DNA from: Desulfobacterium sp.
Lineage (GTDB): Bacteria; Desulfobacterota; Desulfobacteria; Desulfobacterales; Desulfobacteraceae
Length of the DNA stretch: 64,000 bases
Assembly: GCA_030145245.1 (NCBI GenBank)
Contig: JAQYWC010000054.1
Location: 62,001-126,000, forward strand
Direction: 5' to 3'
Under the pieces are notes generated by a model. It saw nothing but the letters and a program-made list of their open reading frames with translations. It made no database searches and was not told where the DNA came from. Within the stretch, counting starts at the first letter, position 1, and every line of letters starts with the position of its first letter. The translations under genes were made by a program, and so were the position numbers. Positions 32,601 through 61,512 of this stretch are shown here, in pieces.

Positions 32601-32662
32601 TCCCGATTTATCCTGCAGGATCATGGGAACTTGCCTCTGTCCACGAGAATCAAGCTCACTTT

Positions 32663-32923
32663 CATTCAGGCAGGTCTTCTGACTTTCCTTCCCTTTCAGC
32701 AGCCTTCCCACCCCGGTTGTCATTCTGCTCCGGATGATGAACACCGGATTCAGGAATGACAGGGCAGTGGCATACAATGGCCGAAAGAGTTTCCTTAAAT
32801 TCTTTTGAAAATAAGGAAAAGGATCACAGCGGCGGGCCCGTCCCCGATTTTCACGGGGTTCCCTGTTAAAGAGCCTGAAATTTAAATGATCAGGCCCTTG
32901 TGTGCTTTAAAAGCACCTGAATG
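32663..32923 (-). promoter_or_regulatory. Cobalamin riboswitch 1 (before the TonB receptor pair)
   Basis: On the minus strand the closing stem is CATTCAGG (32923-32916) with CCTGAATG (32670-32663). Inside are AGGTGC, the conserved core GGGAACCCCGTGAAAATCGG, ACGGGCCCGCCGCTGT, GCCACTG, and the 3' signature AAAGTCAGAAGACCTGCCTG. These are the diagnostic B12 elements in correct order. Confidence 0.96.
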
Positions 32924-33010: not shown

Positions 33011-33039
33011 TTGACATATCCAGTATTATCTTGTAGCAA
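33011..33039 (+). promoter_or_regulatory. Promoter of riboswitch unit 2
   Basis: TTGACA (33011-33016), a 17-base spacer, and TAGCAA (33034-33039). The arrangement and much of the spacer are shared with the promoter of unit 4 at 51386. It is back to back with the unit 1 promoter. Confidence 0.65.
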
Positions 33040-33047
33040 AAGAAACG

Positions 33048-33230
33048 TTTCATCAGGTGCAATTGCTTAATAGGGAATCCCGTTTGAACCGGGAACGAGC
33101 CCATCGCTGTATTCGGGGACGAAGACTGCAATAATGTCACTGGACAGACAGCTGCCATAGCCTGGCAGCTTAAACCGGGAAGACGCAGCCAGTAGAAAGA
33201 TCCGAGAGTCAGAAGACCTGCCTGGGGAAA
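33048..33230 (+). promoter_or_regulatory. Cobalamin riboswitch 2 (before the chelatase ATPase genes)
   Basis: The closing stem is TTTCATCAGG (33048-33057) with CCTGGGGAAA (33221-33230). The core is GGTGC, GGGAATCCCGTTTGAACCGG and ACGAGCCCATCGCTGT, followed by GTCACTG and GAGTCAGAAGACCTGCCTGG. The core box carries changes (ACGAGCCCATCGCTGT in place of the usual ACGGGCCCGCCGCTGT), so ligand affinity may be altered. Confidence 0.93.
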
Positions 33231-33283
33231 GGATGAGTAGCATGGGAGTGCTGCACGTCCAATGATCTACTGGATAAAAAGGG

Positions 33284-33362: not shown

Positions 33363-35297
33363 ATGTTTCATAGCAAAATTTTCCCGTTTTCAGCCATTGT
33401 CGGTCAGGAAAATTTAAAGCTTTGCCTGATCCTCAACGCCATCAACCCGGGAATCGGCGGGGTATTGATTCGTGGAGAAAAAGGAACCGCTAAATCAACA
33501 ACCGTCCGCGGTCTTGCCGATATTTTGCCGCTGCCGTCCTCCCTTGTTAACCTGCCCCTGAACGCAACCGAAGACAGGGTGACAGGGGGCATGGATTTCA
33601 ACCGTGCCATCAAAGAGGGGAAAAAGGTTTTGCTGCCGGGGGTGCTGGCCGAGGCCCACCAGGGTATCCTCTATGTGGATGAGATCAATCTTCTGGATGA
33701 CCATATTGTGGATATCATCCTTGATGCGGCAGCATCCGGGATGAACAGGGTTGAACGGGAGGGGATCTCCTTTTGCCATCCGGCAAGCTTCATGCTGGTG
33801 GGCACCATGAATCCGGAAGAGGGGGATTTAAGGCCCCAGCTCCTTGATCGTTTCGGGCTTTGCGTGGAGGTTGTTTCGGAAAAAGATCCCGAACTCCGGG
33901 TGGTTCTCATGGAGGAGCGGGAACGCTATGACCGGGATCCTGATCAATACAGGGCTGTCCATGGAAAAGAGAATCAAAAGCTTGCCGAAAAAATCAAACA
34001 GGCCGGTTTACTGCTGCCCCGGGTGAAAATATCAAAGCAGTCAAGGGCGTTTATTGCCGAGCTGTGTTCCGCAAATAATGTGGCGGGCCATCGTTGTGAC
34101 ATCGTTCTTGAACAGGCGGCAAAGGCCCATGCCGCATTACTTGGGCAGACCGAAGTAACCCTTGATGACATCGGCATTGTGGCGGAGTTTACCCTTTTTC
34201 ACCGGAAAAGGGATGCCGCCCCGCCGCCGCCCCCGGAACCGCCCCAGCCGGATAAAGACCAGGCCGAAACAGATCAGCAGGATAACGAACAGAAAGAAGA
34301 CCCAGGGCAGACAGAGCAGGAAAATCCGGGTCAGCCGGACAGGGAAGAACCGGACCAGGAAGGGGCAGATAAAGATTCCCGGGAGACGGAACAGCCGGAC
34401 AAAGGAGAGGATAATTCCCAGGAGGCCGGAGAAGATAAAAACCGCCGGGACCCGGAACAGGTATTTGAGATCGGCGCTTCCTTTCAGGTGAAAAAGATCT
34501 CTTCTCCCAAGGATCGCAAGATGCGAAGGGGCTCCGGCAGGCGATCCCGGAGCCGTGTCTCCCAGAAACAGGGCCGGTATGTAAAATCCTCCATGAAGCG
34601 TATCAACAACGATGTGGCCCTGGATGCCACATTAAGGGCAGCAGCCCCGTTCCAGGCAGCAAGGGATATTCCCGAGGGGTTGACGGTTTGCCTGAAACCC
34701 GAAGATATCAGAGAGAAGATCCGGGAAAAACGCATGGGCAACTTCCTCGTATTCCTCGTGGATGCAAGCGGGTCCATGGGAGCCCGGGGGCGCATGGCTG
34801 CATCCAAGGGTGCGATCCTTTCTTTGCTCCTTGATGCCTACCAGAAACGGGACAGGGTGGCCATGGTATCCTTCAGGAAATCCGAAGCATGGGTCAACCT
34901 GCCGCCCACATCTTCCATTGAGCTTGCGGCCTCCTATCTCAAAGAGATGCCGGTGGGGGGAAGAACTCCGCTTTCCGCAGGCCTTGAGAAAACCCACCAA
35001 CTGGTAAACAACGCCCTGAACCGCGATCCCGGAACCCGGCCCATTGTTCTCATCATCACCGACGGGAAATCCAATGTTGCCATGGGGGAGAACAGGCCGG
35101 TTGATGAGGCGCTCATGTTTGCGTCAAAAATGGGGGAGGATGACAGGGTTAAATATATTGTAGTGGACACGGAATCCCAGGGCATTGTCACCTTTGGGCT
35201 TGCACCGAAACTTGCTGTAGCCATTGGTGCCGACTGTTGTAAAATCGATGATCTGAAGGCTGAAGCCCTTGTGGGGCTTGCCAGGGCTTCGGCATAA
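33363..35297 (+). CDS. Chelatase subunit with AAA and VWA domains (ChlD/BchD-like, ChlI-ChlD fusion type)
   Basis: The protein has 644 residues. The AAA domain (1-280) has Walker A GEKGTAKS near 38-45, Walker [13 protein letters not shown] near 102-113, and [23 protein letters not shown] very acidic Pro/Glu/Gln-rich linker spans about 286-370. A C-terminal VWA domain has the MIDAS motif VDASGSMG near 465. This is the D-type ATPase partner of CobN/ChlH-type chelatases that insert Co2+ or Mg2+ into tetrapyrroles. It is the first gene after riboswitch 2. Its adjacent CobN is a pseudogene, so its working partner is probably the CobN at 57727. Confidence 0.92.
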
Positions 35298-35323
35298 GGC
35301 ATAAAACATAAGGAGATAGTTTG

Positions 35324-36352
35324 ATGGAAAAGCGAGAGATCTTTCCCTTTACCGCCATTGTGGGCCAGGAACAGATGAAACTTGCATTGATACTCAATGT
35401 GATTAATCCCGCCCTTTCCGGGGTGCTGATCCGGGGGGAGAAGGGAACGGCAAAATCAACGGCGGTCAGGGCCCTTGCCGAAATCCTGCCAAAGATCGAG
35501 GTCATCAGCCAATGTCCTTTCCGGCTTCCGGCTTCGGAGACAGGGGAGATCTGCAAAAAATGCGTTGTGGAGGATTGCGTTCCCGAAACCCGCATGGACG
35601 CCATCAAGGTGATTGAACTGCCCGTGGGTGCCACCGAAGACAGGGTGGTGGGCACCATGGATCTTGAGCATGCCCTGAAAAAAGGAGAAAAGCGAGTCGA
35701 TCCGGGTATCCTTGCCGCAGCCCACCGGGGGATTCTCTATGTGGATGAGGTCAACTTGCTGGACGACCATGTGGTGGATGTACTCCTTGACTCTGCTGCC
35801 ATGGGCGTTAACACCATTGAACGGGAAGGGGTCTCTTTTTTCCATCCTGCAAGGTTTACGCTTGTTGGCACCATGAATCCCGAAGAGGGGGAGCTCCGGC
35901 CCCAGCTCCTGGACCGGTTCGGCCTCTGCGTCAGCATCCAGGGCTCCCATGATCCGGAAGAGCGGGTGGCTGTAATGGAGAGACGGGCTGAATTTGATGA
36001 TGATCCAAAGGCGTTCTGCCAAAGGTGGCAGGAGGAATCAAGGGCGCTTTCAAACAAGATCGAGCTTGCCATCTCCCTCTATCCCAAGGTCACCATTGAA
36101 CGGCCGCTTCTCTTTGAGATCGCATCATTTTGCCTTGATGTGGGGGTTGACGGTCATCGTGGCGATATCATCATTTTAAAAACAGCCAAGACCCTGGCCG
36201 CCTATCATGGCCGGACAGAGGTGACAAGCCAGGATGTCGAACATGCGGCTGAGCTGGCCCTTCCCCACAGGATACGGAGAAAACCCCTCCAGGAAGTGGC
36301 AAGCGATGTCAGCGCCCTTCGTAATCAAAACAGAAAGAGTAATCTCAAGTGA
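35324..36352 (+). CDS. Chelatase AAA ATPase subunit (ChlI/BchI-like)
   Basis: The protein has 342 residues from an ATG at 35324 with AAGGAG upstream. Walker A GEKGTAKS is near 37-44. A Cys-containing insertion (CPFRLPASETGEICKKCVVEDC) is near 65-86. The family run LPVGATEDRVVGTMDLEHAL, ILYVDEVNLLDDHVVDVLLDSAAMG and [22 protein letters not shown] is complete. It forms the I-ring that energises metal insertion together with the D subunit. It overlaps the start of the decayed cobN by 4 bases, as expected of a former chlD-chlI-cobN operon. Confidence 0.93.
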   Translation: MEKREIFPFTAIVGQEQMKLALILNVINPALSGVLIRGEKGTAKSTAVRALAEILPKIEVISQCPFRLPASETGEICKKCVVEDCVPETRMDAIKVIELPVGATEDRVVGTMDLEHALKKGEKRVDPGILAAAHRGILYVDEVNLLDDHVVDVLLDSAAMGVNTIEREGVSFFHPARFTLVGTMNPEEGELRPQLLDRFGLCVSIQGSHDPEERVAVMERRAEFDDDPKAFCQRWQEESRALSNKIELAISLYPKVTIERPLLFEIASFCLDVGVDGHRGDIIILKTAKTLAAYHGRTEVTSQDVEHAAELALPHRIRRKPLQEVASDVSALRNQNRKSNLK

Positions 36353-46557: not shown

Positions 46558-46612
46558 GGAGCAGGAACGCCTTGTCCCCAAAAAAATATCCCACATTAAA
46601 AGGGAGAACAAG

Positions 46613-49386: not shown

Positions 49387-49446
49387 GCAGAAAACTTGTC
49401 AGAAGATCCTATGAGGAACGTATTCAAACAGAATAATGGAGGCCTG

Positions 49447-50766
49447 ATGGAACCTATAATAGCCGCATCTATTAAAATTTGGGGTGACATAGCTGGATAT
49501 GTCGCCTGGGAAAAAGGTGAACCTTGCGCCACCTTTGAATACGAACCCAAATTTTTAAGGAATGGCCTCGATCTGGCTCCTATGACTATGAACTTGCGGG
49601 ATGCCAGAGAGGGGACCAGGTGGTCTTTCCCCAATATAGACCCCATCACCTTCCATGGTTTACCCGGATTACTAGCCAGCAGTCTGCCAGATAACTTTGG
49701 AAACAAGATTATAGACGCATGGTTAACGAGGCGTGGTCGTGATCCCAAAACCTTTAATGCCATTGAACGACTCTGTTATATTGGAACCCGAGGAATGGGG
49801 GCGCTGGAATTTGATCCGCAACTACGTTCAAAACGCCTTGATAAGTCAATCACTGTTGATGTCAAAGAGTTGATGGAGTTGGTCCAGGACGCATTAACCG
49901 AACGTACTCGCCTTGATGCCCGAATAGATGAGGGGGCGGCTGATAAAGAAAACGCAGAGGCTCTTTTAGCTATCTTGCGAGTTGGAACGTCTGCCGGTGG
50001 AGCTGTTCCTAAAGCCATTATTGCAATAAATGACAAAGGACACGTTATTTCCGGCCAATCAGATGTCCCTGAAGGGTATGAGCATTGGATTTTGAAATTT
50101 GACGGTATTTCGGAAGGTGATCCGAGTAAATTTGGCACATCTTTTGATGATGGCCGAGTAGAGTATGCCTACTACTTGATGTCCCAATATGCCGGAATCG
50201 ACATGATGGAAAGCCGGCTCTTAGAAGAAAATGGAAGAGCTCATTTTATGACTAAACGGTTTGATCGAGTAGGGAATGAAAAAATCCACGTGCTGTCACT
50301 GGCTTGCATGAGCCATTTAGGATGGAATCCAGCAGGGTCAGCCGGATATGAACAGGCATTCTATACTATGCGTATGCTTCGCATGTCTTATGCCGAACAA
50401 GAACAGCAGTTTCGCCGGATGGTTTTTAATGCAGTCTCGAAAAACGTTGATGATCACACAAAAAATATCAGCTATATGATGGATAAGGATGGTGTATGGA
50501 AACTGTCTCCGGCCTATGATCTCACCTTATCTTCCGATTCCGCAGAATTATTTGGAGATCAGCATAAAATGACAATCAATGGAAAACAAAAAGATATCAC
50601 CATTGAAGATCTTCTTAGTGTCGCTAAAAATATGGAGATCAAAAAAGGCAACAAGATCATCGAACAGGTTAGGGATTCAGTGGCCCGATGGGATACCTTT
50701 GCTGGCCAAGCCGGGGTTCGAGATGATGTTCGGAAACATGTCTCTGATCTTCATATGAAATTGTAG
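49447..50766 (+). CDS. hipA: HipA-family serine/threonine kinase toxin
   Basis: The protein has about 439 residues from the ATG at 49447, with GGAGG 5 bases upstream; an in-frame TTG at 49396 is less likely. The N-terminal HipA domain (IKIWGDIAGYVAWEKGEPCATFEYEPKFL, LPGLLASSLPDNFGNKIIDAWL) precedes the kinase-like core: GTSAGGAVPKAIIAI, WILKFDG, MTKRFDRVGNEKIHVLSL, and the catalytic DDHTKN near 335, followed by LSPAYDLT. In E. coli, HipA phosphorylates GltX and causes growth arrest. The key Asp and Asn are visible, so it is likely active. It pairs with the upstream HTH protein. Confidence 0.93.
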   Translation: MEPIIAASIKIWGDIAGYVAWEKGEPCATFEYEPKFLRNGLDLAPMTMNLRDAREGTRWSFPNIDPITFHGLPGLLASSLPDNFGNKIIDAWLTRRGRDPKTFNAIERLCYIGTRGMGALEFDPQLRSKRLDKSITVDVKELMELVQDALTERTRLDARIDEGAADKENAEALLAILRVGTSAGGAVPKAIIAINDKGHVISGQSDVPEGYEHWILKFDGISEGDPSKFGTSFDDGRVEYAYYLMSQYAGIDMMESRLLEENGRAHFMTKRFDRVGNEKIHVLSLACMSHLGWNPAGSAGYEQAFYTMRMLRMSYAEQEQQFRRMVFNAVSKNVDDHTKNISYMMDKDGVWKLSPAYDLTLSSDSAELFGDQHKMTINGKQKDITIEDLLSVAKNMEIKKGNKIIEQVRDSVARWDTFAGQAGVRDDVRKHVSDLHMKL

Positions 50767-51385: not shown

Positions 51386-51414
51386 TTGACATATTGGCTG
51401 TAATTCTATAGCAA
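51386..51414 (+). promoter_or_regulatory. Promoter of riboswitch unit 4
   Basis: TTGACA (51386-51391), a 17-base spacer and TAGCAA (51409-51414). The same wording is found at 33011-33039, which marks a duplicated leader. Confidence 0.7.
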
Positions 51415-51423
51415 AGAAGCTGT

Positions 51424-51596
51424 TTTACCAGGTGCATTTGCTGAAAAGGGAATCCCGTGAAAATCGGGAGCGGGCCCGCCGCTGTAATCGGGGACGAGAG
51501 CTGCAAAGATGTCACTGGATAAAAAGCCGTTGGTGCTTGATCCGGGAAGGCGCAGCTATTAGGATGATCCGAAAGTCAGAAGACCTGCCTGGTGAA
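51424..51596 (+). promoter_or_regulatory. Cobalamin riboswitch 4 (before the CcsA/ResB-BtuFCD-rSAM-CobN operon)
   Basis: The closing stem is TTTACCAGG (51424-51432) with CCTGGTGAA (51588-51596). The core is GGTGC, GGGAATCCCGTGAAAATCGG and GCGGGCCCGCCGCTGTAATC, then GTCACTG, with GAAAGTCAGAAGACCTGCCT at the end. It is the most canonical of the four, and its leader is closely related to that of riboswitch 2. Confidence 0.97.
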
Positions 51597-51687
51597 GATG
51601 AAACTTTGAGCATTGTTTGAGGGTTTCAGGGGATGCGCTGCCAGGGTAGGCAGAACTCCCGGTTCATATCCCATGGATAAAAAAGGG

Positions 51688-51726
51688 AAATCCACGGATT
51701 GATAATTGTCAATTTGTGGATTTTTT
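51688..51726 (+). terminator. Expression-platform terminator of riboswitch 4
   Basis: AAATCCACGGATTGA (51688-51702) pairs over all 15 positions (with G-U) with TCAATTTGTGGATTT (51709-51723), followed by T run to 51726. Its 3' arm overlaps an in-frame GTG at 51716, so the downstream TTG at 51746 is the more likely start of the first gene. Confidence 0.9.
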
Positions 51727-51745
51727 GCGTTTGTGGGGGTATGCA

Positions 51746-52504
51746 TTGACGACAGCTACAACACTTGATCTGATTCAAAATTCTTTTTTTATTGCCTCCT
51801 GTTTCTATGTTGCGGGCCTGGGTGCTGTGCTCGTGAAGCGGCGGGGCATTGGGGGAGGACTTGTGGGTGCAGGCTGCCTGTGCAATGGTTTCTCTCTGGC
51901 CCTTCGTTATTGGAGTTCGTTTCCCCTGCTGCCCCTTTACCAAGGGGCTTTTTTTATTCCTTTTGTTGTGGGGCTTTTCTGTACAAGATCCCTGTTTAAA
52001 GGGGATGGCAGCGTTATTCATGCGCTGCTGGTGGTGGTCCTGGCCTGGTCGGCTCTTCTTTTTCCCAATGATTTCTATTTGCCGTTTTTGCAGTTCAAGA
52101 GCTTGTTTGCCCATGGTTTCTTTTTGCTGGGGGTGGGGGGCAAGGCTTTGTTTCTGGTATCAGGCGCATGGGCCTTGACCATCCTTGTGAATCAGGATCA
52201 GAAAGATATGAAGAGGATGGGTACGTATGTGATATGGGGCTACTTCTTCTGGACCCTTTCGGTTTTTTCCGGGGCGGTATGGGCCTACCTTGGATGGGGA
52301 TCGCCCATTGTGTGGGAGGATCCTCTTTTGACTACCACCATGGCCACCTGGCTTTATTACACATTGTTTCTTCATCTTCATTTGACGCGGCTTAACAGCG
52401 TGAGATCACGGGCGCTGCTTACTTTTGGGGGGGCTGTGTTTGTGTTTTTGTTCAACCTGGTTCCTGAACTTGGAATCTTTATGATGCCGGGGATCAAGTT
52501 ATGA
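51746..52504 (+). CDS. CcsA/ResC-like cytochrome c assembly (heme-handling) membrane protein
   Basis: The protein has about 252 residues and about eight membrane spans. I prefer the TTG at 51746 (GTGGGGGT just before it); the open frame begins at 51716. A Trp-rich loop, GAVWAYLGWGSPIVWEDPLLTTTMATWLYY, corresponds to the WWD segment of CcsA (GxxWA...WGxxWxWDPKExW) but departs from it (VWEDP instead of WDPKE). Candidate ligand histidines are in LFAHGFFLL and LFLHLHLTR, flanking that loop as in CcsA. CcsA proteins present heme for cytochrome c ligation. In a cobalamin-riboswitch operon, a corrinoid or other tetrapyrrole is an alternative cargo. The stop overlaps the ResB-like start. Confidence 0.8.
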   Translation: MTTATTLDLIQNSFFIASCFYVAGLGAVLVKRRGIGGGLVGAGCLCNGFSLALRYWSSFPLLPLYQGAFFIPFVVGLFCTRSLFKGDGSVIHALLVVVLAWSALLFPNDFYLPFLQFKSLFAHGFFLLGVGGKALFLVSGAWALTILVNQDQKDMKRMGTYVIWGYFFWTLSVFSGAVWAYLGWGSPIVWEDPLLTTTMATWLYYTLFLHLHLTRLNSVRSRALLTFGGAVFVFLFNLVPELGIFMMPGIKL

Positions 52505-53319
52505 AAATGATAAAGAAAGCATGGCATGGGGTGGGTCACGTCAACCTATTCATGGTGATTATCGGGCTGATGGTGGTGGATCTGCTGTTGGGCTACAAAC
52601 AGCTTAAGTTCCATGCGGCTCTGTTTGATCCTATTAATGATATGGGGTTTTACCGGTGGGCTTTGACCTATGGCAGGCACTATCCTTCCAATACGGCGTG
52701 GCTGTTCGTATTGGTGGGGCTTCTGGGGATACTCTCTGTTAATACCTTTGTCTGCACAACCGAGCGGATCTTTGTGCTGATCAGGAGCCGGCATGCCTTT
52801 GCCAAACGGTCGCGGTTTTTGCTGAGGTTTGGTCCTCATATTATGCATTACAGCATGCTCATCATGTTCCTTGGGTATCTTGTGAGCTATCTTTCGGCAG
52901 GGACCCACATGGGAAAGGTGCTGCTGCCGGGGAAATCCATCACACTTACCCGGCCTGGCTGCACTATTACCCTTGAGGATCTGGCTATAGATTACTATGG
53001 GGGCGGGCGCATGATCCATATGGACAGGCGGGCCATGGATGTGAGGGCTACCCTCAGGATCGAGGACGAAACAAGGAGTAAAACCGCTGTGCTCGCTTTT
53101 AACAGTCCGGTCAGGTTCTCTCCTTTGAGCATACATCTGAAGAAATTTGCTCCCTTGAAAAAGGGGGGGATGGGACGGAAAAAATATATCACCGTTATTA
53201 TTAAAAACGATCCGGGCATGAAGTTTTATTTCAGTGGTATGATTCTCTTTACTCTGGGGCTTTTCATGTATCTTTGGGATAAATTGTCCAGGCATGCACG
53301 GCAGGAGGATAGGGCGTGA
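52501..53319 (+). CDS. ResB/Ccs1-like membrane protein
   Basis: The protein has 272 residues. Two N-terminal spans (LFMVIIGLMVVDLLLGY; AWLFVLVGLLGILSVNTFVCTTERI) precede a third with LRFGPHIMHYSMLIMFLGYLVSY. A periplasmic beta-rich domain follows (VLLPGKSITLTRPGCTITLEDLAIDYY to YITVIIKNDPGMKFYF) and then a last span (MILFTLGLFMYLWDKL). This is the layout of ResB/Ccs1, the partner of CcsA in system II cytochrome c maturation, but it is much shorter than typical ResB proteins (450 or more). It overlaps both neighbours by 4 bases, so it is tightly coupled to the CcsA-like protein and to the binding protein of a BtuFCD-like importer. Confidence 0.78.
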   Translation: MKMIKKAWHGVGHVNLFMVIIGLMVVDLLLGYKQLKFHAALFDPINDMGFYRWALTYGRHYPSNTAWLFVLVGLLGILSVNTFVCTTERIFVLIRSRHAFAKRSRFLLRFGPHIMHYSMLIMFLGYLVSYLSAGTHMGKVLLPGKSITLTRPGCTITLEDLAIDYYGGGRMIHMDRRAMDVRATLRIEDETRSKTAVLAFNSPVRFSPLSIHLKKFAPLKKGGMGRKKYITVIIKNDPGMKFYFSGMILFTLGLFMYLWDKLSRHARQEDRA

Positions 53320-54404
53320 AGACAAAATGGATGTTTTTTATGTTTTGCTGCATTTTGATGGTATCGGGATGCGGAAAAGACAAGGTGGGGGATGAGCCGG
53401 GGTTCATGAGCATCGGCAGCTTTGCCGTGAATAAGATCGACTCGGGATGGACTGAGGTTCGGGACGGCGCAGGCAGAACCCTTGTACTGATACCCCGGGG
53501 GGAAAAGGCTCCTGACGGGTATGAGCCGTGGCAGGTGGTGGAGATCCCGGTTCGCAGGGTGGCCGCCTATGGCTCCTTTGACGTCTCTATTTTAAAAGCA
53601 CTTGGCGTGATCGGGGATGTGCTGGTGGGGGTCACCACCAAAAAGGAGGACTGGACCATTCCCGAGGTGGTCAGGGGGATGGAGGAGGGGAGGATTACCT
53701 ATCTTGGCAATTACAATGCCATTGACTATGAACGGCTCAAGGCGTCGGAGCCGGAGCTTGTCCTCACCTGGGACATGTCCATCATCCCCATGCTCGATGA
53801 GATGGGGGTTCCCTGTGTGATCACCTCCACGCCGGTTGCCATGTGCCTCAACGCCAGGATGAAATTTGTCAGCTTTATTGCTCCTTTTTTCCAGAAGGAG
53901 AAACAGGCCCGGGAGTATTTTGCCAAGGTGGCGGGTTCCCTTGCAAGGATACGGGAGGTGACAAAGAATGCCACTGAAAACCCCAAGGTGATCTGGGGCG
54001 ATATCTATGAGAAGCGGGTGCTTGTGGAGCCGGGTAACGCCTGGGTGGGGGAGCTTGTGGGGCTTGCGCAGAGTGACTATCTCTTTGATGACGTCATTGG
54101 GAAATCGTGTATTGAGATCTCCCTTGAACGCTTTCTTTACAGCGGCGAGGATGCTGAAATATTCTTTACCTACCGGACGCCTGAAAACGGGGCGACCTCC
54201 AAGGCCGCGCTTGCCAGGGCCAATCCTTTGATCGCCGGGCTGAAGCCTTTGAAGGACGGCAGGGTTTACTCTCCCTATGCCACTTACTCCCAGTCGGGGG
54301 ATAAGCTGGACGAAATATTGACGGACATTGCCGCCATTCTTCATCCAAAGTGCTACCCGGGCCATGTGTCACGGTATTTCAGGGAGCTGCCGGACAGGGA
54401 TTGA
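53316..54404 (+). CDS. BtuF/FecB-like periplasmic binding lipoprotein
   Basis: The protein has 362 residues. The GTG at 53316 overlaps the ResB-like stop, with AGGAGG upstream. A lipoprotein signal ends LMVSGC. The fold is a type III (helical-backbone) binding protein: VVEIPVRRVAAYGSFDVSILKALGVIGDVLVGVT, ASEPELVLTWDMS and WVGELVGLAQSDYLFDD are the usual BtuF/FhuD landmarks. Typical cargo is B12, siderophores or heme. Control by riboswitch 4 makes a corrinoid the most likely ligand. Confidence 0.9.
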   Translation: MKTKWMFFMFCCILMVSGCGKDKVGDEPGFMSIGSFAVNKIDSGWTEVRDGAGRTLVLIPRGEKAPDGYEPWQVVEIPVRRVAAYGSFDVSILKALGVIGDVLVGVTTKKEDWTIPEVVRGMEEGRITYLGNYNAIDYERLKASEPELVLTWDMSIIPMLDEMGVPCVITSTPVAMCLNARMKFVSFIAPFFQKEKQAREYFAKVAGSLARIREVTKNATENPKVIWGDIYEKRVLVEPGNAWVGELVGLAQSDYLFDDVIGKSCIEISLERFLYSGEDAEIFFTYRTPENGATSKAALARANPLIAGLKPLKDGRVYSPYATYSQSGDKLDEILTDIAAILHPKCYPGHVSRYFRELPDRD

Positions 54405-54434
54405 ATTACTAATTAAGGTTAAAGGAGAGATAAC

Positions 54435-55493
54435 GTGGCAACTACCCTTGTTGAAACAGCTACCCCGGTTCAATACCAGGAGGGGATGATGAAGCGCCAG
54501 AGAACGGTTTTCCTGGTTGCAGGCGCCGTGCTTCTGGTGTTCATGGCAATAAATGTACTGGTCGGCTCCATTGATATCGGTTTCAAAGAGATCATGGATA
54601 TTCTTATCACCCACGACACGGCCAGCACAAAGGGCTTTATCGTCTGGAAAATACGGCTGCCCAGGGCCATTGCAGCGGCCCTGGGGGGCGGCTGTCTTTC
54701 GGTGGCAGGTCTTCTGCTCCAGGTCTATTTCAGGAATCCAATTGTGGGGCCTTTTATCCTGGGGATCTCCTCCGGGGCAACCCTGATGGTCTCCATTGTG
54801 ATGCTCACCTCGGTGACCATTGGAATGACCCTGGTGAATCCGTTCATGTGTACCCTGGCCGCGTTTGTGGGGGCATACGGAACCATGCTCATCGTGCTTT
54901 TGATTGCAAACCGGGTCAAGAACGGGGTGACCCTGTTGATCGTGGGGCTGATGATGGGGTATCTCTGCCATTCGGTCACAAGCGTGCTGGTTGCCTTTGC
55001 CGAAAAGGAGAAGATCAAGGGGTTTGTCCTGTGGCAGCTTGGCAGCTTTTCCGGGTTTAAATGGAGCGAGATAGAGATCCTCTGCATCGTGGGCGGCCTG
55101 GTGCTTGTGCTGGTGTACTTTCTGGCAAAACCCTTGAACGCCTTTCTGCTTGGAGAGGATTATGCGGCATCCATGGGGGTGAATATCAGGCTCTTCAGGA
55201 TGCTGATACTGGTGAGTGCCTGCGCCCTTGCCGGCATGATCACTTCCATGGCAGGACCTGTGGCGTTTGTGGGCCTTGCCGTGCCCCATATGGTGCGCCT
55301 TCTTTTTGCAACCTCCGACAACCGGGTGCTGATCCCGGGATCGGTGCTTGTGGGAGCCATGGTGATCAGTCTGTGTGATTTCATCGCAAGGATGGTGTTT
55401 AACCCGGTGGAGCTTCCCATCAGCGCCATCACGGCGTTTTTCGGTGCTCCCATTGTCATAAGCCTGCTTTTAAAACGGAGGACAAAGATATGA
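54435..55493 (+). CDS. FecCD/BtuC-type ABC importer permease
   Basis: The protein has 352 residues with about ten membrane spans. Diagnostic stretches are IRLPRAIAAALGGGCLSVAGLLLQVYFRNPIVGPFILGISSGATL, QLGSFSGFKWSEIEIL, and GPVAFVGLAVPHMVRLL near the C-terminus. Together these form the BtuC/FhuB inner-membrane core. The GTG start has AAAGGAGAG upstream; a later ATG at 54489 is possible. The stop overlaps the ATPase start by 4 bases. Confidence 0.94.
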   Translation: MATTLVETATPVQYQEGMMKRQRTVFLVAGAVLLVFMAINVLVGSIDIGFKEIMDILITHDTASTKGFIVWKIRLPRAIAAALGGGCLSVAGLLLQVYFRNPIVGPFILGISSGATLMVSIVMLTSVTIGMTLVNPFMCTLAAFVGAYGTMLIVLLIANRVKNGVTLLIVGLMMGYLCHSVTSVLVAFAEKEKIKGFVLWQLGSFSGFKWSEIEILCIVGGLVLVLVYFLAKPLNAFLLGEDYAASMGVNIRLFRMLILVSACALAGMITSMAGPVAFVGLAVPHMVRLLFATSDNRVLIPGSVLVGAMVISLCDFIARMVFNPVELPISAITAFFGAPIVISLLLKRRTKI

Positions 55494-56710
55494 ATCAAGC
55501 GTTGGCTGTTTTATCTGCAAACGATCTTTGCGTGGGGTACGGGAAGAAAACCGTGCTTGAAAATGTCCGGCTCGAGTTTGTAAAAGGGGAGTTCATTTCC
55601 CTGCTGGGCCCCAACGGCGCGGGCAAGACCACCCTGTTGAGAACCTTGTCCAGGCACCTTGCCCCGCTTGGGGGGGAGGTGGTTCTGGGGGGCGTTGAAC
55701 TTGGAAAGATCGTTCAGCAGGATCTTGCGAAAACCATGTCCGTTGTGCTGACGGAAAAGGTTGTGCCGCCGTTGTTACGGGTGTTTGATTTTGTGGCCAT
55801 GGGCCGGTATCCCCATACGGGCTGGCGGGGCAGGCTGACTGATAAAGATAACCAGGTGGTCATGGAGGCCCTGGCAATGGTACAGGCCGGGGAGCTTGTG
55901 TATCGGGATCTTGATACCCTGAGCGATGGTGAACGCCAGAAGGTGTATGTGGCAAGGGCCCTTGCCCAGCAGCCTGAGATCATTCTTCTGGACGAACCCA
56001 CCATGCACCTTGATCTGAAACACAGGATGGAGCTCATGTCCATCCTCCGGCGATTGTGCAGGGACAAGGGCATCTGTGTGGTTGCCTCCCTCCATGATGT
56101 GGAGATCGCAGCCAAGATCTCGGACAAGGTGGCCCTGGTCAAGGGCGGTGAGATCCGGGCGTTCGGCCCCCCCGAGGATGTCCTGCTGGACGATACGGTG
56201 GCGGACCTGTACGACTTTCGTAACGCACGGTTCAGCAGGGTGCTTGGAACCATTGAGATGGAAAACCGGGTGGACCGGGGCAGGGTGTTTGTGGTGGGCG
56301 GCATGGGAAGCTCATCCGTGCTCTACCGGCTGCTCTCTAAAAAAGGGTATGGCATCGTCACTGGGGTTTTGCACAGGAATGATATCGACCTCCATGTGGC
56401 AAGATCCCTTGGGGCAGCGTGCCTGGTCCAGGAGCATCTTGACGGAATCTCCCCGGAAAACATGGAAAACGCCAGAAGTGAGATGAAAAACTGTGACTGT
56501 GTCATTGATACGGGGTTTGAGCTGGAGACCATCAACGCTGGCAATCTTGCCCTTTTAAAGGAAGCTGTCTCCATGGGAAAACCGGTGTTGAGCATGCGAA
56601 ACGGATCCGGCCGGGAGCTCTACACCGCCGGGGAGTATGAGTCCATCAAATTCTCAACAAGCGAATCCAGTCTGGTTGAAATGGTAAAATGCCTGTCCCT
56701 TCCTATCTGA
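55490..56710 (+). CDS. BtuD-type ABC ATPase with an extra C-terminal Rossmann-like domain
   Basis: The protein has 406 residues, about 150 more than a plain BtuD. Residues 1-255 carry Walker A GPNGAGKTTLLRTL, a signature LSDGERQKVYVARA, Walker B ILLDEPTMHLDL and the switch region VVASLHDVEIA. From about 260 the sequence is a separate domain beginning RGRVFVVGGMGSSSVLYRLLSKKGYGIVTGVLHRNDID, with a GxGxS-like turn, and containing DCVIDTGFELETINAGNLALLKEAVSMGKPVLS. Similar tails occur on corrinoid- or iron-importer ATPases of archaea and clostridia. The function of the tail is unknown to me. Confidence 0.9.
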   Translation: MNQALAVLSANDLCVGYGKKTVLENVRLEFVKGEFISLLGPNGAGKTTLLRTLSRHLAPLGGEVVLGGVELGKIVQQDLAKTMSVVLTEKVVPPLLRVFDFVAMGRYPHTGWRGRLTDKDNQVVMEALAMVQAGELVYRDLDTLSDGERQKVYVARALAQQPEIILLDEPTMHLDLKHRMELMSILRRLCRDKGICVVASLHDVEIAAKISDKVALVKGGEIRAFGPPEDVLLDDTVADLYDFRNARFSRVLGTIEMENRVDRGRVFVVGGMGSSSVLYRLLSKKGYGIVTGVLHRNDIDLHVARSLGAACLVQEHLDGISPENMENARSEMKNCDCVIDTGFELETINAGNLALLKEAVSMGKPVLSMRNGSGRELYTAGEYESIKFSTSESSLVEMVKCLSLPI

Positions 56711-57720
56711 TACTGATGCTCACAGGCGCCTGCAACCTTGACTGTTCCTATTGCTATCTTGGGGACAACAAGGACCAGAAGAGCATGGATGAGCGGCTGA
56801 TCGATCGCTCCATCGGGCTTGCCGCATCATCAGGCCGACCCTTTCATGTGCAGCTTTCAGGGGGGGAGCCCACCTTGGTTCCCCATCTGATCGAGCATGC
56901 GGCAAAAAAGGTCAGGGAGTTGAGCCCCGGTTCCACCATCGGACTGCAGACCAACGCCACCCTGCTTGACCATGAAATTGCCGGGATGATGGATCGGTTC
57001 CAGATCGATGTGGGCATCAGCCTTGACGGTCCCCCGAATGTCCAGGCCAGCACCCGGGGGGCAGCCCCTGCTACATTCAAGGGCATGGAGATCCTGGAAA
57101 GAAACAAAATTTGCTTTAACGTCACCACGGTGGTGACCCGTGAAAACGCTGATTCTCTGTACAAGCTGCCCCTTGTTCTGGGTGGTTATTCCCGGGTAAG
57201 GGGGATCGGGCTGGATCTTTTGATCAACAAGGGCAATGCCCAAAAGGGCAGGGCGGGTCAGCCTGCCGAACCTGGGCAGCTTGAAAATGGGTTGAAGCAA
57301 ATGGTTCAGGCCCTTGATACGGTCAACAAAATGAGAAAACAGGGGCTTCAGTTAAGGGAGCTGTCAAGGATAAAGGATCAGGCGCTGGGGAGTGAAAACC
57401 CATGCTTTTGCCAGGCAGCAGCCGGCAAAAGCATGGTGGTCACCCCGGACGGCACCCTTTATCCCTGTACCCAGACGGCCTTTGATCCGCTTTTCTGCCT
57501 TGGCACCCTGGATGATCCCAGGCCCTTGAACCAGGGCGTTTCCCTGAAAGGCGCTTTCCTGAACAGAGCCAAGGGCAGGAAGGATTGCGGCAATTGCGCT
57601 CTTACGCTGAACTGCCCCGGGGAGTGCCCCAGCAGGCTCTATTACAACCGGCAGGATCCGGTGCAGCTTGCCTGTGTCATTTACCAGACGCTTGCTCAAT
57701 CTTTGAAATTAAATCCATAA
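56689..57720 (+). CDS. Radical SAM protein with C-terminal SPASM-like Fe-S domain
   Basis: The protein has 343 residues. CNLDCSYC at 15-22 is the CxxxCxxC radical SAM motif (MLTGACNLDCSYCYLGDN). VQLSGGEPTLVPHL is the GGE SAM-binding region. The C-terminal 90 residues contain a Cys set (ENPCFCQ, LYPCTQTAFDP, KDCGNCALTLNCPGECPSRL, LACVIYQ) like the SPASM domain of anSME, PqqE and peptide-maturing enzymes. Such enzymes modify peptides or small molecules. No short precursor-peptide gene is visible beside it, so a corrinoid- or tetrapyrrole-related substrate should also be considered. It overlaps the ATPase by 22 bases and precedes cobN by 6 bases. Confidence 0.9.
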   Translation: MPVPSYLILMLTGACNLDCSYCYLGDNKDQKSMDERLIDRSIGLAASSGRPFHVQLSGGEPTLVPHLIEHAAKKVRELSPGSTIGLQTNATLLDHEIAGMMDRFQIDVGISLDGPPNVQASTRGAAPATFKGMEILERNKICFNVTTVVTRENADSLYKLPLVLGGYSRVRGIGLDLLINKGNAQKGRAGQPAEPGQLENGLKQMVQALDTVNKMRKQGLQLRELSRIKDQALGSENPCFCQAAAGKSMVVTPDGTLYPCTQTAFDPLFCLGTLDDPRPLNQGVSLKGAFLNRAKGRKDCGNCALTLNCPGECPSRLYYNRQDPVQLACVIYQTLAQSLKLNP

Positions 57721-57726
57721 AAGGCG

Positions 57727-60700
57727 ATGACCATGCAATCCTATAACCTATGCTACTACAGTGCCACATCCATGGAGATCTCCTGTCTTGCCCAGGGGCT
57801 TGGGGCGTTCAACAAGACGGGGGCAAAGGTCCGGGTCCATGCAAGGACAAGAACCCAGCTCTTTGATGAAAAAAGGATCGCCTCCTTTGTTAAACGGGCC
57901 GTGTCCTCTGATGTGATCATCATCACCCTCCATGGCGGAAAAGAGTCCTGTCCCGCCTTTGACAATCTGATAGGGGCCATTAACGGTTTAAAGGAAAAGA
58001 ATGAAAAAATTCCCTGGCTGCACATCCAGCCCACCGGCGGGGATGAGGACGCCCTGGAACTTGCCCGGCTGCACTCCCCTGGATTTGGGGAGAAAGCCTG
58101 GGATGAGATACAGCGTTATCTGAGGTACGGCGGGGCTGTAAATTTTAAAAATCTTCTGACGCATCTCCAGGGCGTGGTCACAGGCCATGGCCCGGAAACG
58201 CCTGCTGATCCGCCCATTGAACTTCCCCATGAAGGCATCTATCACCCGGATATTCCCGGGGTTCCCTCCCTTGAAGCGTATCTCAGGTCAAAGCGTGTGC
58301 CCGGGCGCATCACCGTTGGGCTGTGGTTCAACCAGAGTTACTGGCTGAATAATAATGTCAGCTTTATCGACGCCATCATCCGGGCTGTGGAAGGGATGAA
58401 CGCAAACATCATCCCCGTGTTTCATCTCCGGTACAAGGACGCGGCCCTTGGCAACCATGGTGCGGATTATATTGTGGAGAATTTCTTCATGGAGGATGGA
58501 AAATCCATCATTGATGTGCTCATCAATCCCATGATGTTTTCCATGACCCTTGCCGATCCGGATTACAAGGAACTCTACCCAAGGCTTGATGTGCCGTGCA
58601 TCCAGGCCATGACTACCCTGCAGCCGGTTGATGAGTGGCAGGAGAGTGTCCAGGGCATGACCACCATGGAGGTCTCATATTCGGCTGCCCAGCCCGAGTT
58701 TGACGGTTCCCTGATAACCGTTCCCGTGGCTTCCAGGGAGCAGGATGAGATCGATCCCCTGACAGGTGCATTGATTGCCCGCAACATGCCCATCAAAGAG
58801 CGGGTGGACAAGATGGTGAGGCTCTCCCTTAACTGGGCCAGGCTCAGGAAAAAGAGCAACCATGAGAAGAAAGTTGCCATTGTCTTTCACCACTATCCCC
58901 CGAGGAACGACAGGATCGGTTGTGCTGCCGGTCTTGACAGCTTTGAGAGTGTAAAGATCCTTGTGGACACCCTGAAGCAAGAGGGGTATGGGGTCGGGAA
59001 AACCTATGAAAACGGGGATGAACTTGCCCATGGAATTGTCTCGGGCATGACCTGCGACAGCCGCTGGCTTTTGCCGGAGCAGATGTATGAACGCTCCGGG
59101 GCCCGGGCACAAAGAGCGGATTACATGCCCTGGCATGACGCCCTGCCGTCATCCGTCAGGGAAAAAATGGTGAATGACTGGGGCGAGATGCCCGGCGATC
59201 TTTTTGTTCACAAGGATGAAATGATGTTCAGCGGCACCCTGAACGGCAATCTCTTCATCACGGTGCAGCCGCCCCGGGGGGTGCTTGAAAACATTGAGAA
59301 ATCCTACCACGACATGTCCCTGTCTCCTCCCCATCATTATCTTGCCCAGTACAGATATATTAAGGAGACATTCGGTGCCGATGCCGTCATCCATGTGGGT
59401 AAGCACGGCTCCCTTGAGTGGCTGCCCGGAAAGGCCCTGGGGCTTTCGGAGCTTTGCTATCCGGATCTTTCCATCATGGATCTTCCCAACATCTATCCCT
59501 ATATCATCAATGATCCCAGCGAAGGCACCCAGGCAAAGCGGCGCTCCTATTGCTGCATCATCGATCATCTCATTCCTTCCATGACCAATGCGGATCTCTA
59601 TGAAGAGCTCTCACGGGTTGAAAACCACGTCAGGGAGTATGAGGATGCCCGGCGGGAGGACCCGGGCAAGCTCGATATACTGGGACCCATGATATGGGAG
59701 GCGGTTGAGGAGGCAAACCTTGACAAGGATCTTGAGATCAGCCGGGAAACGGCGTTTGAAGATTTTGACGCTTTCCTGGAAAAGCTTCACTCCTATCTTG
59801 GAGAACTCGGCGATACCATGATCAATGACGGTCTCCATGTGCTGGGAACCGTTCCTGAACAAGGGCGGCTGACAGAGTTCCTTGTCCAGCTCACCCGCCT
59901 TGAAAATGGCCGGGTGCCCTCCCTCAGGGCGTCGATCATCAATGCAAGGGGGTATGACTATGATGTGGTCGTGGAAAACAAGGGGAGAATCGTTGACAAG
60001 AAAGCGGGGATGACGGGAAGGCAGATCATTGCCGCTGCCCATGATCTTGCCCTGGAGATGGTGAATCAGCTGGCTTGCCGGGATTTTTCTATGGAGAGCA
60101 TCAAGGGGATCGTTGTCTCAGGTTTAGGAAAAAACTATGACGATGTTGAAGCATGCCTTGGCTACATTGCCCAACACCTGGTTCCCAATATTCAAAAGGT
60201 GACGGACGAGATCGGGTCAACCCTTACGGCCCTGAACGGCGGGTTTGTCCTGCCCGGACCGTCCGGGGCTCCCACCCGGGGCCAGGCAGATATACTGCCC
60301 ACGGGCAGGAACTTCTATTCCGTTGATCCCAACAAGATCCCGAGCCCCGGTGCCTGGGAGACGGGTAAACGGCTTGGTGACGCCCTGCTTGACCGGTACC
60401 GGGAGGAGACCGGGAAATATCCGGAAAGTGTCGGCATCATCGTGTACAGCGCTTCCACCATGCGGTCCAAGGGAGATGATATTGCCGAGATATTCTATCT
60501 CCTCGGTGTAAAACCTGTGTGGCATAAAACCAGCCAGGCGGTCCAGGGGGTGGAGATCATACCCCAGGCCGAGCTTGGCCGCCCAAGAATCGATGTGGTG
60601 CCGAGGATATCGGGATTCTTCAGGGACAGCTTTCCCATTCTTGTGAAAAGGATAGATGAGGCCGTCAGGATGGTTGCTCTGCTGGACGAACCCATGGAAT

Positions 60701-61512
60701 CCAATTTGATAAAAAAACATGTGTTCAAGGATGTTGAGACCTATCGTGCGGAGGGAATGAGCGAGGAGGATGCCTTCAGGGAAGCCTCGTTCAGGGTGTT
60801 TGGCTGCCCCCCCGGCTCCTATGGTGCCGGTGTGTCGGAACTTGTGGAATCAAAGAACTGGAAAACCCAGGAGGATCTTGGTAACAATTATATCCGTTAC
60901 TCAAGCCATGCCTATGGAGAGGGAAGTTATGGCAGTCAGAAGCCAACAGCATTCAGGAAGGTTCTCTCCCGCATGGATGTCACCGTGAAAAACGAGGACA
61001 GCCGGGAGTATGACATGATGTCCTGCACCGACTATTACAACTACTACGGCGGCTTGATCGTGGCAAACAAAACGGTCCGGGGGAAACTCCCCTTTTCTTT
61101 GGTGGGGGACAGTTCAGATCCTAAGAGAATCATCATGCGGACAACCAGGGAAGAGGCAAAGCATGTGTTGAGATCACGCCTGGTAAATCCCAAATGGCTC
61201 AACGGCATGATGCGCCACGGGTACAAGGGGGCAGGGGACATCTCCCATATGATGGATGTTGCCCTTGGCTGGGATGCCACAGCCGAAGTGATGGATGACT
61301 GGATGTATGAGAGCATGGCGGATAAATACGCCCTTGACGAGAAGATGAAAAAGTGGATGAACAAGGTGAATCCCCATGCCCGGCAAAATATCCTGGACAA
61401 GCTCCTGGAAGCGATTGCAAGGGGCATGTGGGAGGCCGATGCGGAGATGGAGGAGCGCCTCCGGGATGAGTACCTTGAAATTGAGGGGGAGATCGAAGGG
61501 TTAACCGAATAG
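57727..61512 (+). CDS. cobN: CobN-like large metal-chelatase subunit, intact
   Basis: The protein has 1261 residues, normal for CobN/ChlH-type proteins. The start may be 57727 or the second ATG at 57733, which has AAAGG at better spacing. Landmarks are SVNFKNLLTHLQGV-type helices, IYHPDIPG, GLWFNQSYW, LINPMMFSM, the block HYLAQYRYIKETFGADAVIHVGKHGSLEWLPGKALGLS, LPNIYPYIINDPSEGTQAKRRSYCCIIDH, and the late PPGSYGAGVSELVES, YNYYGG and NILDKLLEAIARGMWEAD. CobN inserts Co2+ into a corrinoid ring with ATPase partners, or in related HmuS-like proteins may work in reverse on heme. No ChlI/ChlD is in this operon. The pair at 33363-36352 is the probable partner. Confidence 0.94.
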   Translation: MTMQSYNLCYYSATSMEISCLAQGLGAFNKTGAKVRVHARTRTQLFDEKRIASFVKRAVSSDVIIITLHGGKESCPAFDNLIGAINGLKEKNEKIPWLHIQPTGGDEDALELARLHSPGFGEKAWDEIQRYLRYGGAVNFKNLLTHLQGVVTGHGPETPADPPIELPHEGIYHPDIPGVPSLEAYLRSKRVPGRITVGLWFNQSYWLNNNVSFIDAIIRAVEGMNANIIPVFHLRYKDAALGNHGADYIVENFFMEDGKSIIDVLINPMMFSMTLADPDYKELYPRLDVPCIQAMTTLQPVDEWQESVQGMTTMEVSYSAAQPEFDGSLITVPVASREQDEIDPLTGALIARNMPIKERVDKMVRLSLNWARLRKKSNHEKKVAIVFHHYPPRNDRIGCAAGLDSFESVKILVDTLKQEGYGVGKTYENGDELAHGIVSGMTCDSRWLLPEQMYERSGARAQRADYMPWHDALPSSVREKMVNDWGEMPGDLFVHKDEMMFSGTLNGNLFITVQPPRGVLENIEKSYHDMSLSPPHHYLAQYRYIKETFGADAVIHVGKHGSLEWLPGKALGLSELCYPDLSIMDLPNIYPYIINDPSEGTQAKRRSYCCIIDHLIPSMTNADLYEELSRVENHVREYEDARREDPGKLDILGPMIWEAVEEANLDKDLEISRETAFEDFDAFLEKLHSYLGELGDTMINDGLHVLGTVPEQGRLTEFLVQLTRLENGRVPSLRASIINARGYDYDVVVENKGRIVDKKAGMTGRQIIAAAHDLALEMVNQLACRDFSMESIKGIVVSGLGKNYDDVEACLGYIAQHLVPNIQKVTDEIGSTLTALNGGFVLPGPSGAPTRGQADILPTGRNFYSVDPNKIPSPGAWETGKRLGDALLDRYREETGKYPESVGIIVYSASTMRSKGDDIAEIFYLLGVKPVWHKTSQAVQGVEIIPQAELGRPRIDVVPRISGFFRDSFPILVKRIDEAVRMVALLDEPMESNLIKKHVFKDVETYRAEGMSEEDAFREASFRVFGCPPGSYGAGVSELVESKNWKTQEDLGNNYIRYSSHAYGEGSYGSQKPTAFRKVLSRMDVTVKNEDSREYDMMSCTDYYNYYGGLIVANKTVRGKLPFSLVGDSSDPKRIIMRTTREEAKHVLRSRLVNPKWLNGMMRHGYKGAGDISHMMDVALGWDATAEVMDDWMYESMADKYALDEKMKKWMNKVNPHARQNILDKLLEAIARGMWEADAEMEERLRDEYLEIEGEIEGLTE

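Follow-up and report, generated by a model that had tools for sequence, protein, structure and literature searches.

We analysed a 64,000-nucleotide stretch of a Desulfobacterium sp. genome (assembly GCA_030145245.1, contig JAQYWC010000054.1, positions 62,001 to 126,000, forward strand), called the window below and numbered from its first letter. At 51413-61512 on the plus strand lies an operon, confirmed as an observed feature, in which a cobalamin riboswitch precedes genes for a CcsA-like and a ResB-like membrane protein, a BtuFCD-like importer, a radical SAM/SPASM-type enzyme and the cobaltochelatase subunit CobN, in that order:

51413..51606, +, cobalamin riboswitch aptamer RF00174 (cmscan 114.1 bits, full model 1-189)
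51688..51723, +, terminator-like hairpin, 16 bp stem and 4 nt loop (centroid fold; arms kept in the relatives L084 and L085)
51716..52504, +, CcsA-like membrane protein with an altered WWD loop (PF01578, Cytochrom_C_asm, 37.5 bits, cut-off 29.9)
52501..53319, +, short ResB-like membrane protein with four hydrophobic segments (PF05140, ResB, 31.7 bits, cut-off 24.6)
53316..54404, +, BtuF-like substrate-binding protein, probable lipoprotein (PF01497, Peripla_BP_2, 63.3 bits; lipobox by eye)
54435..55493, +, BtuC-like permease (PF01032, FecCD, 268.2 bits; best NCBIfam match the BtuC model, under its cut-off)
55490..56710, +, BtuD-like ATPase with a C-terminal extension (PF00005, ABC_tran, 97.7 bits)
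56689..57720, +, radical SAM/SPASM-type enzyme (PF04055, Radical_SAM, 59.4 bits)
57727..61512, +, CobN, class I cobaltochelatase large subunit (TIGR02257, 959.3 bits, cut-off 822.05)

The original prediction for this locus described one promoter, a canonical cobalamin riboswitch and a terminator ahead of six genes with overlaps or short gaps. The riboswitch is confirmed, its score lying far above the RF00174 gathering score of 31.5. Seven same-strand open reading frames (ORFs), rather than six, follow the aptamer, the last ending at 61512; neighbouring ones overlap or are separated by no more than 30 nt, in keeping with the description. The promoter found no counterpart, with 0 matches in the consensus scan, and the terminator stands in part: the hairpin, followed by a short T run, is situated between aptamer and genes and is prominent in the fold (z -4.3 for the folded 134 nt), although it is missing from the list of the consensus scanner. 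It is the probable expression platform of the riboswitch. Since GTG 51716, at which the listed ccsA ORF starts, falls within this hairpin, TTG 51746, preceded by GGGGG, is the likelier initiation codon and, judging from these letters, probably the true ccsA start.

The best NCBIfam match of the BtuD-like ATPase is the corrinoid ABC transporter ATPase PRK09536 (residues 7-346, under cut-off), which partly covers the C-terminal extension of about 150 residues (56225-56710). The riboswitch and the CbiZ and CobN neighbours described below point to a corrinoid as the likely cargo of the importer.

Gene order among relatives

Searching a 395-genome phylum sample and an 86-genome family sample with the ResB-like protein (E<=0.001) gave matches in 72 and 9 genomes, respectively. 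Among the loci opened, namely the best 30 from the phylum sample and all 9 from the family sample, the start ccsA-resB-btuF occurs in at least 14 of the 395 genomes (its own included) and in 4 of the 86. A scan of genome contigs with a CcsA-like alignment then yielded 71 loci; many of the record titles are those of sulfate reducers, several are metagenome-assembled genomes, and some labels (Accumulibacter) are doubtful. On the basis of tblastn labels, the loci sort into 52 of type A, with btuF or btuC downstream of the pair (btuC only in L115), 13 of type B, in which the pair lies beside a tetrapyrrole-methylase-like protein, and 6 others. A riboswitch lies upstream in one of these six. L102 carries a riboswitch and, like L150, falls with type A in the CcsA tree.

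Within the fetched stretches of the 52 type A loci, we labelled resB in 52, btuF in 51, btuC in 49, btuD in 47, cobN in 36, the radical SAM gene in 16, chlD in 16, chlI in 16 and a TonB receptor in 22. The strict order ccsA-resB-btuF-btuC-btuD is kept in 47 loci, and resB lies within 500 nt of btuF in 51. A same-strand riboswitch precedes ccsA in 45 of the 52, by 222 to 8464 nt (median 453) and by no more than 700 nt in 29. These elements were found with a model, R1, built from 23 riboswitches, some of them from genomes later scanned, those having first passed RF00174. The predicted tie of the pair to importer, CobN and riboswitches is upheld by an importer behind the pair in 52 of 71 loci and by the 45 riboswitches. 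Type B loci differ: an upstream same-strand riboswitch was found in 0 of 13, and none was found anywhere in these 13 loci. Distance correlations among the module proteins, which are weak evidence, are all positive (0.62-0.87, with differing row sets), the lowest being that between ccsA and cobN. Salvage genes also appear as neighbours, CbiZ together with CobO/BtuR in L062 and CbiZ in L049.

This arrangement does not favour the proposal that the membrane pair passes a ring to the chelatase. The constant neighbour of the pair is BtuF (51/52), with CobN in 36/52, and module-type CobN occurs in loci that have no pair; a direct hand-over was rejected as the main idea, given that the pair goes with BtuF and that CobN is also found in its absence.

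In type B, a TonB receptor is labelled in 10 of the 13 loci and lies directly upstream in 7. These loci (L136, L137, L139-L141, L143-L149 and L152, to which L060 and L061 can be added) describe a sister system with the order TonB receptor, diverged CcsA/ResB-like pair and tetrapyrrole-methylase (TP_methylase) protein, this last protein being recorded for the loci other than L061. Here the TP_methylase domain lies behind a partial Oxidored_molyb match, no cobalamin riboswitch was found, and the histidine P-His1 of the pair is lost. L060 also encodes a TP_methylase protein whose start resembles a signal peptide; a periplasmic tetrapyrrole-methylase fold would be odd.

The CcsA/ResB-like pair

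In cytochrome c synthases, as described in the part of the source available to us, an internal heme is held by one transmembrane histidine from each partner (TM-His1 and TM-His2) and an external heme by the WWD loop together with the periplasmic histidines P-His1 and P-His2 (PMC10663686). We compared 55 type A CcsA rows (the 52 loci, the window, L062 and L065) with 14 type B, 6 other and 9 remaining rows; four rows in the alignment and tree sets carry a stop sign (ccsA L110 and L135; resB L118 and L035). Both internal ligands are kept throughout: TM-His1 is found in 55/55 type A rows and in every aligned row having that column, and TM-His2 in 55/55 type A, 14/14 type B, 4/4 other and 19/19 remaining ResB rows.

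The external site presents a different picture. In the WWD loop (W-G-x-x-W-x-W-D-P-K-E), Trp 1 and Trp 3 are each retained in 54 of 55 type A rows, and the second Trp in none (V or I in 53, M in 2). The D-P-K-E stretch is lost, with [D/E]-D-[A/P] as the commonest substitute and the canonical K column occupied by A or P in 51/55. A distinct loop characterizes type B, with R at the K column in 13/14 and H at the E column in 14/14. A histidine within a residue or two of P-His1 occurs in 53/55 type A rows (all but L106 and L117; the register is uncertain) and in 0/14 type B rows. At the canonical P-His2 column, type A has His in 0/55; the C-terminal tail contains any His in only 6/55, none in a GLH/LHS-like setting. 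The ResB-like protein of the window has 272 residues, about 107 of them between hydrophobic segments 3 and 4 according to hydropathy, compared with 459 and 462 residues in canonical ResB. Both features noticed at the outset, the changed Trp loop and the shortened ResB, are thus real and common to the relatives. With the transmembrane histidines kept and the external-site residues altered, the requirements for a transmembrane heme appear retained and the external site changed. These residues suggest that heme is still bound within the pair and that the periplasmic site is what has been remodelled.

Phylogeny sets the pair apart from genuine ResBC, as had been anticipated. The outcome named in advance as refuting the original prediction, a pair nested among genuine ResBC and lacking any conserved tie to CobN or B12 riboswitches, is not what trees and loci show. 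In the CcsA tree, type A plus L102 and L150 make up one side of a 99* branch, with canonical CcsA in a 100* group. The first ResB tree, with all rows, was unresolved and had long branches; after omission of two long rows (A_L062 and C_L044), type A forms one side of a branch of 88 (not starred) and canonical ResB a 97* group. The CcsB equivalog model TIGR03144 gives 43.7 bits, below its cut-off of 187.6.

An AlphaFold model of the CcsA-like monomer built from 48 rows is all helical (pLDDT 89.8, pTM 0.88). Its first match among PDB structures is CcmF (6zmq; probability 1.00, query TM-score 0.66, E 0.0032), and a chain of a CcmC-containing complex (8ce1_C) appears lower among the matches; nothing reached E<=0.001, and no CcsBA entry was among the 50 matches listed. 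PDB sequence searches with the CcsA-like and ResB-like family profiles likewise returned no CcsBA chain. As modelled, the CcsA-like protein probably has a WWD-type fold. The CcmF match leaves the relative standing of the readings discussed here unchanged.

An ordinary cytochrome c synthase placed in this operon by chance, and perhaps maturing a cytochrome for corrinoid reduction, would account for both proteins scoring above the Pfam cut-offs of cytochrome c assembly families and for the retention of the transmembrane histidines and, mostly, of a P-His1-like one. It is highly improbable in view of the absence of P-His2 and of Trp 2 from all 55 rows, the lost DPKE, the separate clade and the two canonical CcsA/ResB sets elsewhere in the source genome (G000), on contigs 32 and 35. 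A third CcsA is on contig 70, and none of these three contigs has an RF00174 match. Cytochrome-like neighbours are few as well: the heme-attachment motif CXXCH occurs in 6 of 690 ORFs of the type A loci, an ORF holding two or more is present in 1 of the 52 loci, and the motif is found in none of the type A matches to CcsA (52), ResB (52), BtuF (52), BtuC (51), BtuD (49) and CobN (38) and in 1 of 16 radical SAM enzymes. We rejected an ordinary ResBC on the grounds of clade, changed residues, canonical sets elsewhere and scarce cytochrome neighbours; on the tests applied, the pair does not belong to the cytochrome c synthases.

A corrinoid might instead be carried by the pair itself, with the remodelled WWD site passing the ring from the outer-membrane receptor to BtuF and no redox role. 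The loop does track the partner gene (V/I at Trp 2 and A/P at K in type A; R and H in type B), as does the P-His1-like histidine (53/55 vs 0/14), and the pair adjoins BtuF in 51/52. This explanation is nevertheless unlikely: both internal heme ligands are invariant, and a pure corrinoid carrier would not need them. To our knowledge, no corrinoid-binding WWD protein has been described, which also counts against it.

CobN, its partners and the radical SAM enzyme

Besides passing TIGR02257, the CobN of the window scores 1292.5 bits with the CobN-Mg_chel Pfam family and 822.5 bits with the BchH model, under the cut-off of 829. Against the PDB, CobN 7c6o ranks best (745 bits), followed by CobN 9uk9 (660), ChlH (488) and HmuS (354). 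In a tree of 43 of 45 rows (two of fewer than 1000 residues were removed), the 36 module-type rows make up a single clade (99*), to which CobN sequences from cobalamin gene loci are joined at 100*, these being from Halococcus, Deinococcus and Azotobacter plasmids; CobN of a Sinorhizobium plasmid, which has no annotation there, also belongs to the 100* group. Outside the module clade, on long branches, lie the other CobN-family protein of G000, a further CobN of L065 and a TonB-linked CobN of Diaphorobacter. By sequence, then, the module protein groups with true cobaltochelatases. The second CobN/BchH-like protein of G000 lies behind its own riboswitch (L067:1219-4974, C62) and is over the BchH cut-off; that of L065, a same-family genome, is 30% identical and is encoded between riboswitch and ccsA (L065:3032-6718), in addition to the module CobN.

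The other elements of the window that concern us are the following:

33038..33239, +, cobalamin riboswitch ahead of the chelatase partner genes (RF00174, 86.4 bits)
33363..35297, +, ChlD-like AAA+/VWA chelatase partner (Mg_chelatase, AAA_lid_2 and VWA_2 domains)
35321..36352, +, ChlI-like AAA+ chelatase partner (Mg_chelatase and AAA_lid_2 domains)
32652..32893, -, cobalamin riboswitch ahead of the TonB-dependent receptor (RF00174, 70.1 bits)
30424..32493, -, TonB-dependent receptor (TonB_dep_Rec and Plug domains), likely an outer-membrane corrinoid port to judge from its riboswitch

The ChlD/ChlI-type partners thus lie 15 kb upstream of the operon under a separate riboswitch, and partners, receptor and module are each preceded by their own RF00174 element. 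Behind ChlD/ChlI are two pieces of a decayed module-type CobN copy (36678-37427 and 37607-39349), one of them 58% identical to the intact CobN over part of its length. ChlD and CbiK are each found in 16 of 17 carrier genomes, the sole miss for both being one genome that is 76% complete. In the 395-genome phylum sample at E<=1e-100, ChlD is present in 13/14 carriers vs 56/381 others (Fisher 6e-10, uncorrected for kinship) and CobN in 12/14 vs 63/381 (Fisher 7e-8, likewise uncorrected). With CbiK present in the carriers, CobN looks redundant for de novo synthesis.

Eleven further loci of module-type CobN, each 11.7 to 19 kb and from ten further genomes, show no pair. A radical SAM gene is near CobN in 8 of the 11 (one label weak), ChlD in 3, a CbiZ-like gene in 4 (one weak), and riboswitch matches in 6, so that the core of CobN, radical SAM enzyme and riboswitch is wider than the link between CobN and the pair. 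The BtuF-like proteins of three such loci are 23-27% identical to the module BtuF. At L166:1475-6143, a TonB receptor, a radical SAM enzyme and CobN are accompanied by CbiK and by a protein resembling CbiZ, each of the two beginning with a leader-like segment, possibly a case of periplasmic corrinoid remodelling.

Could CobN work in reverse and strip the metal from imported corrinoid or heme for its cobalt or iron, as the original prediction allowed for HmuS-like proteins? HmuS, a relative of CobN, de-chelates heme, and its described features include the heme ligands Met-79 and His-254 and a Met-rich insertion (PMC12583661, seen in part). Some Bacteroides hmu-like operons are preceded by cobalamin riboswitches, their function being left open in the portion consulted (PMC10100974), and G000 itself has the second BchH-like CobN-family protein under a riboswitch. 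The scores of 745 bits to CobN 7c6o vs 354 to HmuS, the shared clade with CobN of cobalamin operons, the presence of ChlD/ChlI-type partners (AAA+ and AAA+/VWA) in the genome and a hydropathy profile in which, unlike in membrane-bound HmuS, no segment of the window CobN exceeds the hydrophobicity threshold all weaken the idea; moreover, destroying corrinoids at low B12 would be self-defeating if the riboswitch is an OFF switch. A de-chelatase of HmuS type was dropped as first choice on PDB scores, CobN tree and hydropathy, and we consider reverse action distinctly unlikely.

The radical SAM/SPASM identity proposed for the gene ahead of cobN holds: besides its Radical_SAM score, the CX3CX2C core cysteines are conserved in 26/26 aligned homologues and seven further SPASM-type cysteines in 25-26/26, though the Pfam SPASM model itself stays under its cut-off (16.9 bits against 21.5). 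A model of the heme d1 enzyme NirJ matches weakly (44.6 bits, cut-off 515). This match, together with type B pairs standing beside a tetrapyrrole-methylase-like protein and TonB receptors without riboswitches, would be in line with an operon that imports and remakes another tetrapyrrole (of heme, heme d1 or F430 type), the riboswitch reporting only competition for cobalt or precursor. We regard this as very unlikely, given the CbiZ and BtuR neighbours in L062, CbiZ in L049, riboswitches in 45/52 loci and a CobN over the cobaltochelatase cut-off.

Three RF00174 elements occur in the window beyond that of the operon; the third, of 120 bits, stands before a RACo-type corrinoid-protein activator (46265-48568). 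G000 (6.4 Mb, 83 contigs) has 15 RF00174 matches; by ORF reading, its other riboswitch loci include an anaerobic cbi-type cluster, a CbiK, TonB receptors and ABC transporters. That CbiK is under the NCBIfam cut-off, and PF06180 gives two CbiK over cut-off in G000. An ABC-2 type exporter pair (tblastn label, by eye) directly follows a cobalamin riboswitch at L075:1440-3163 (G000 C79), and an ABC-2 type exporter ATPase is labelled in 11/52 type A loci. Just upstream of the operon, 49074-50766 encodes a small HTH protein and then, by eye, a HipA-like ORF, possibly a toxin-antitoxin pair.

Proposed salvage pathway and known systems

Based on the above data, we propose that this is a corrinoid salvage operon repressed by B12, with the pair acting alongside BtuF at periplasmic import and CobN-ChlID inserting cobalt, a reading that we favour while granting it slightly less than an even chance as a whole. 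Its core, the corrinoid salvage function that had been suggested from the start, is well supported, and the original prediction is partly supported overall. Salvage is indicated by a riboswitch-run CobN and ChlID next to an importer of corrinoid type and by CbiZ/BtuR in some loci, CobN being dispensable for de novo synthesis where an anaerobe has CbiK. Repression by adenosylcobalamin of genes behind such riboswitches is reported by Rodionov and co-workers, in whose text, as far as seen, delta-proteobacteria make B12 by the anaerobic pathway with CbiK or CbiX and the words CobN and ResB do not occur (PMC545781); the switch in our operon presumably works in the same direction.

At low cobalamin, a corrinoid would pass the outer membrane through TonB receptors and be bound on the periplasmic side by the lipoprotein BtuF, which would cooperate with the CcsA/ResB-like pair. 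As the pair is tied to BtuF, and its type B counterpart to a TonB receptor and a tetrapyrrole-methylase-like protein, we place it at a periplasmic tetrapyrrole import site. There, a single heme would sit between the transmembrane histidines of the pair, which might use this b-heme together with the remodelled WWD site for reduction of the corrinoid, for a change of its axial ligand or for its retention. As the b-heme site is kept, the simplest guess is a redox role, and from its residues the pair is probably a heme-b unit that reduces or holds corrinoid; its chemistry is what we infer from homology. The corrinoid so treated would be imported by BtuF-BtuCD. Cytoplasmic CobN, with the ChlD/ChlI-type proteins as its motor, could insert cobalt into corrinoids arriving metal-free or wrongly metallated, the radical SAM/SPASM enzyme may serve as a CobN-linked accessory, and CbiZ and BtuR would complete salvage in some loci.

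Several points weigh against this proposal. The substrate of the BtuF-like protein is predicted, and the protein has no PDB relative at E<=0.01. The radical SAM gene is labelled in only 16 of the 52 type A loci, and 7 of the 52 show no upstream same-strand riboswitch in the fetched DNA (two of these, L122 and L087, have less than 1.5 kb upstream; five have 5 to 10 kb). Since 4 of the 13 type B loci have less than 700 nt before ccsA, the riboswitch contrast rests on fewer loci. The genome associations of ChlD and CobN ignore kinship, and the pair is present in none of the 11 further CobN loci. That the pair binds heme and is redox-active is deduced from homology, the cobalt-free corrinoid feed is likewise a conjecture, and CobN could act on something else, given that these genomes also contain CbiK. 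Finally, the open-access literature searched holds no paper tying such a pair to B12.

More tentatively still, a WWD branch may have left cytochrome c assembly and become a dedicated inner-membrane station for tetrapyrrole uptake, with a heme wire and a partner-fitted site, placed ahead of a late-type cobaltochelatase. The transmembrane heme could then be the electron wire, and the periplasmic site might fit a corrinoid (BtuF type) or another tetrapyrrole (methylase type). The ligand would perhaps be reduced or loaded for import, and the second, late-type cobaltochelatase may remetallate salvaged corrin rings in anaerobes. If true, a membrane redox or loading step would be added to B12 uptake, where we know of none, and the WWD family would gain a role beyond cytochrome c. 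A testable question is raised as to why anaerobes with the early chelatase CbiK retain a B12-controlled late CobN-ChlID beside a corrinoid importer. Should corrinoids without cobalt or with the wrong metal change hands in anoxic sediments, an operon of this kind is what their use would require.

The combination of CcsA/ResB, BtuFCD and CobN is common to many anaerobic bacteria and apparently not yet described: we found no description in the open-access literature, with subscription papers (e.g. the 2003 B12 comparative genomics) lying outside the search. Each of its parts has known counterparts. With CcsBA/ResBC and CcmF, the pair shares Pfam families over cut-off, a transmembrane heme ligand in each partner, Trp 1 and 3 and a P-His1-like histidine; it differs from CcsBA/ResBC in the loss of Trp 2, DPKE and P-His2, in the short periplasmic part of ResB, in having cytochrome neighbours in 1/52 loci and in its link to B12 import. 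CcmF, the nearest solved structure to the CcsA-like model, offers an analogue for the redox role, having been proposed to act as a heme oxidoreductase (reductase) via its transmembrane heme (PMC10663686, in part). Bacteroides also has CcsA loci, which are described in the accessible text as responsive to iron (PMC10434189).

The Hmu/BtuS operons of Bacteroidota likewise combine a TonB receptor with a CobN-family protein, at times under a cobalamin riboswitch (PMC10100974, PMC6460266), although the parts of these descriptions that we consulted mention no CcsA/ResB, BtuFCD or ChlID of module type. Their CobN-like protein is described there as membrane-bound, and BtuS1 and BtuS2, described in PMC6460266, are predicted to be periplasmic. 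Closer to our chelatase is CobNST, presented in the portion seen as an ATP-driven late chelatase specific for cobalt (PMC7689651). The module resembles CobN(ST)/CobN-ChlID in passing TIGR02257, in its clade of cobalamin-operon CobN and in the AAA+ and AAA+/VWA partners of the genome; it differs in belonging to anaerobes that also have CbiK and in lying beside an importer, outside the cbi-type cluster of G000. The importer, lastly, matches BtuFCD (background in PMC2667541, in part) in domain make-up, order and cobalamin riboswitch, and is set apart by its own BtuF subfamily, the C-terminal extension of BtuD and the CcsA/ResB-like pair in front.

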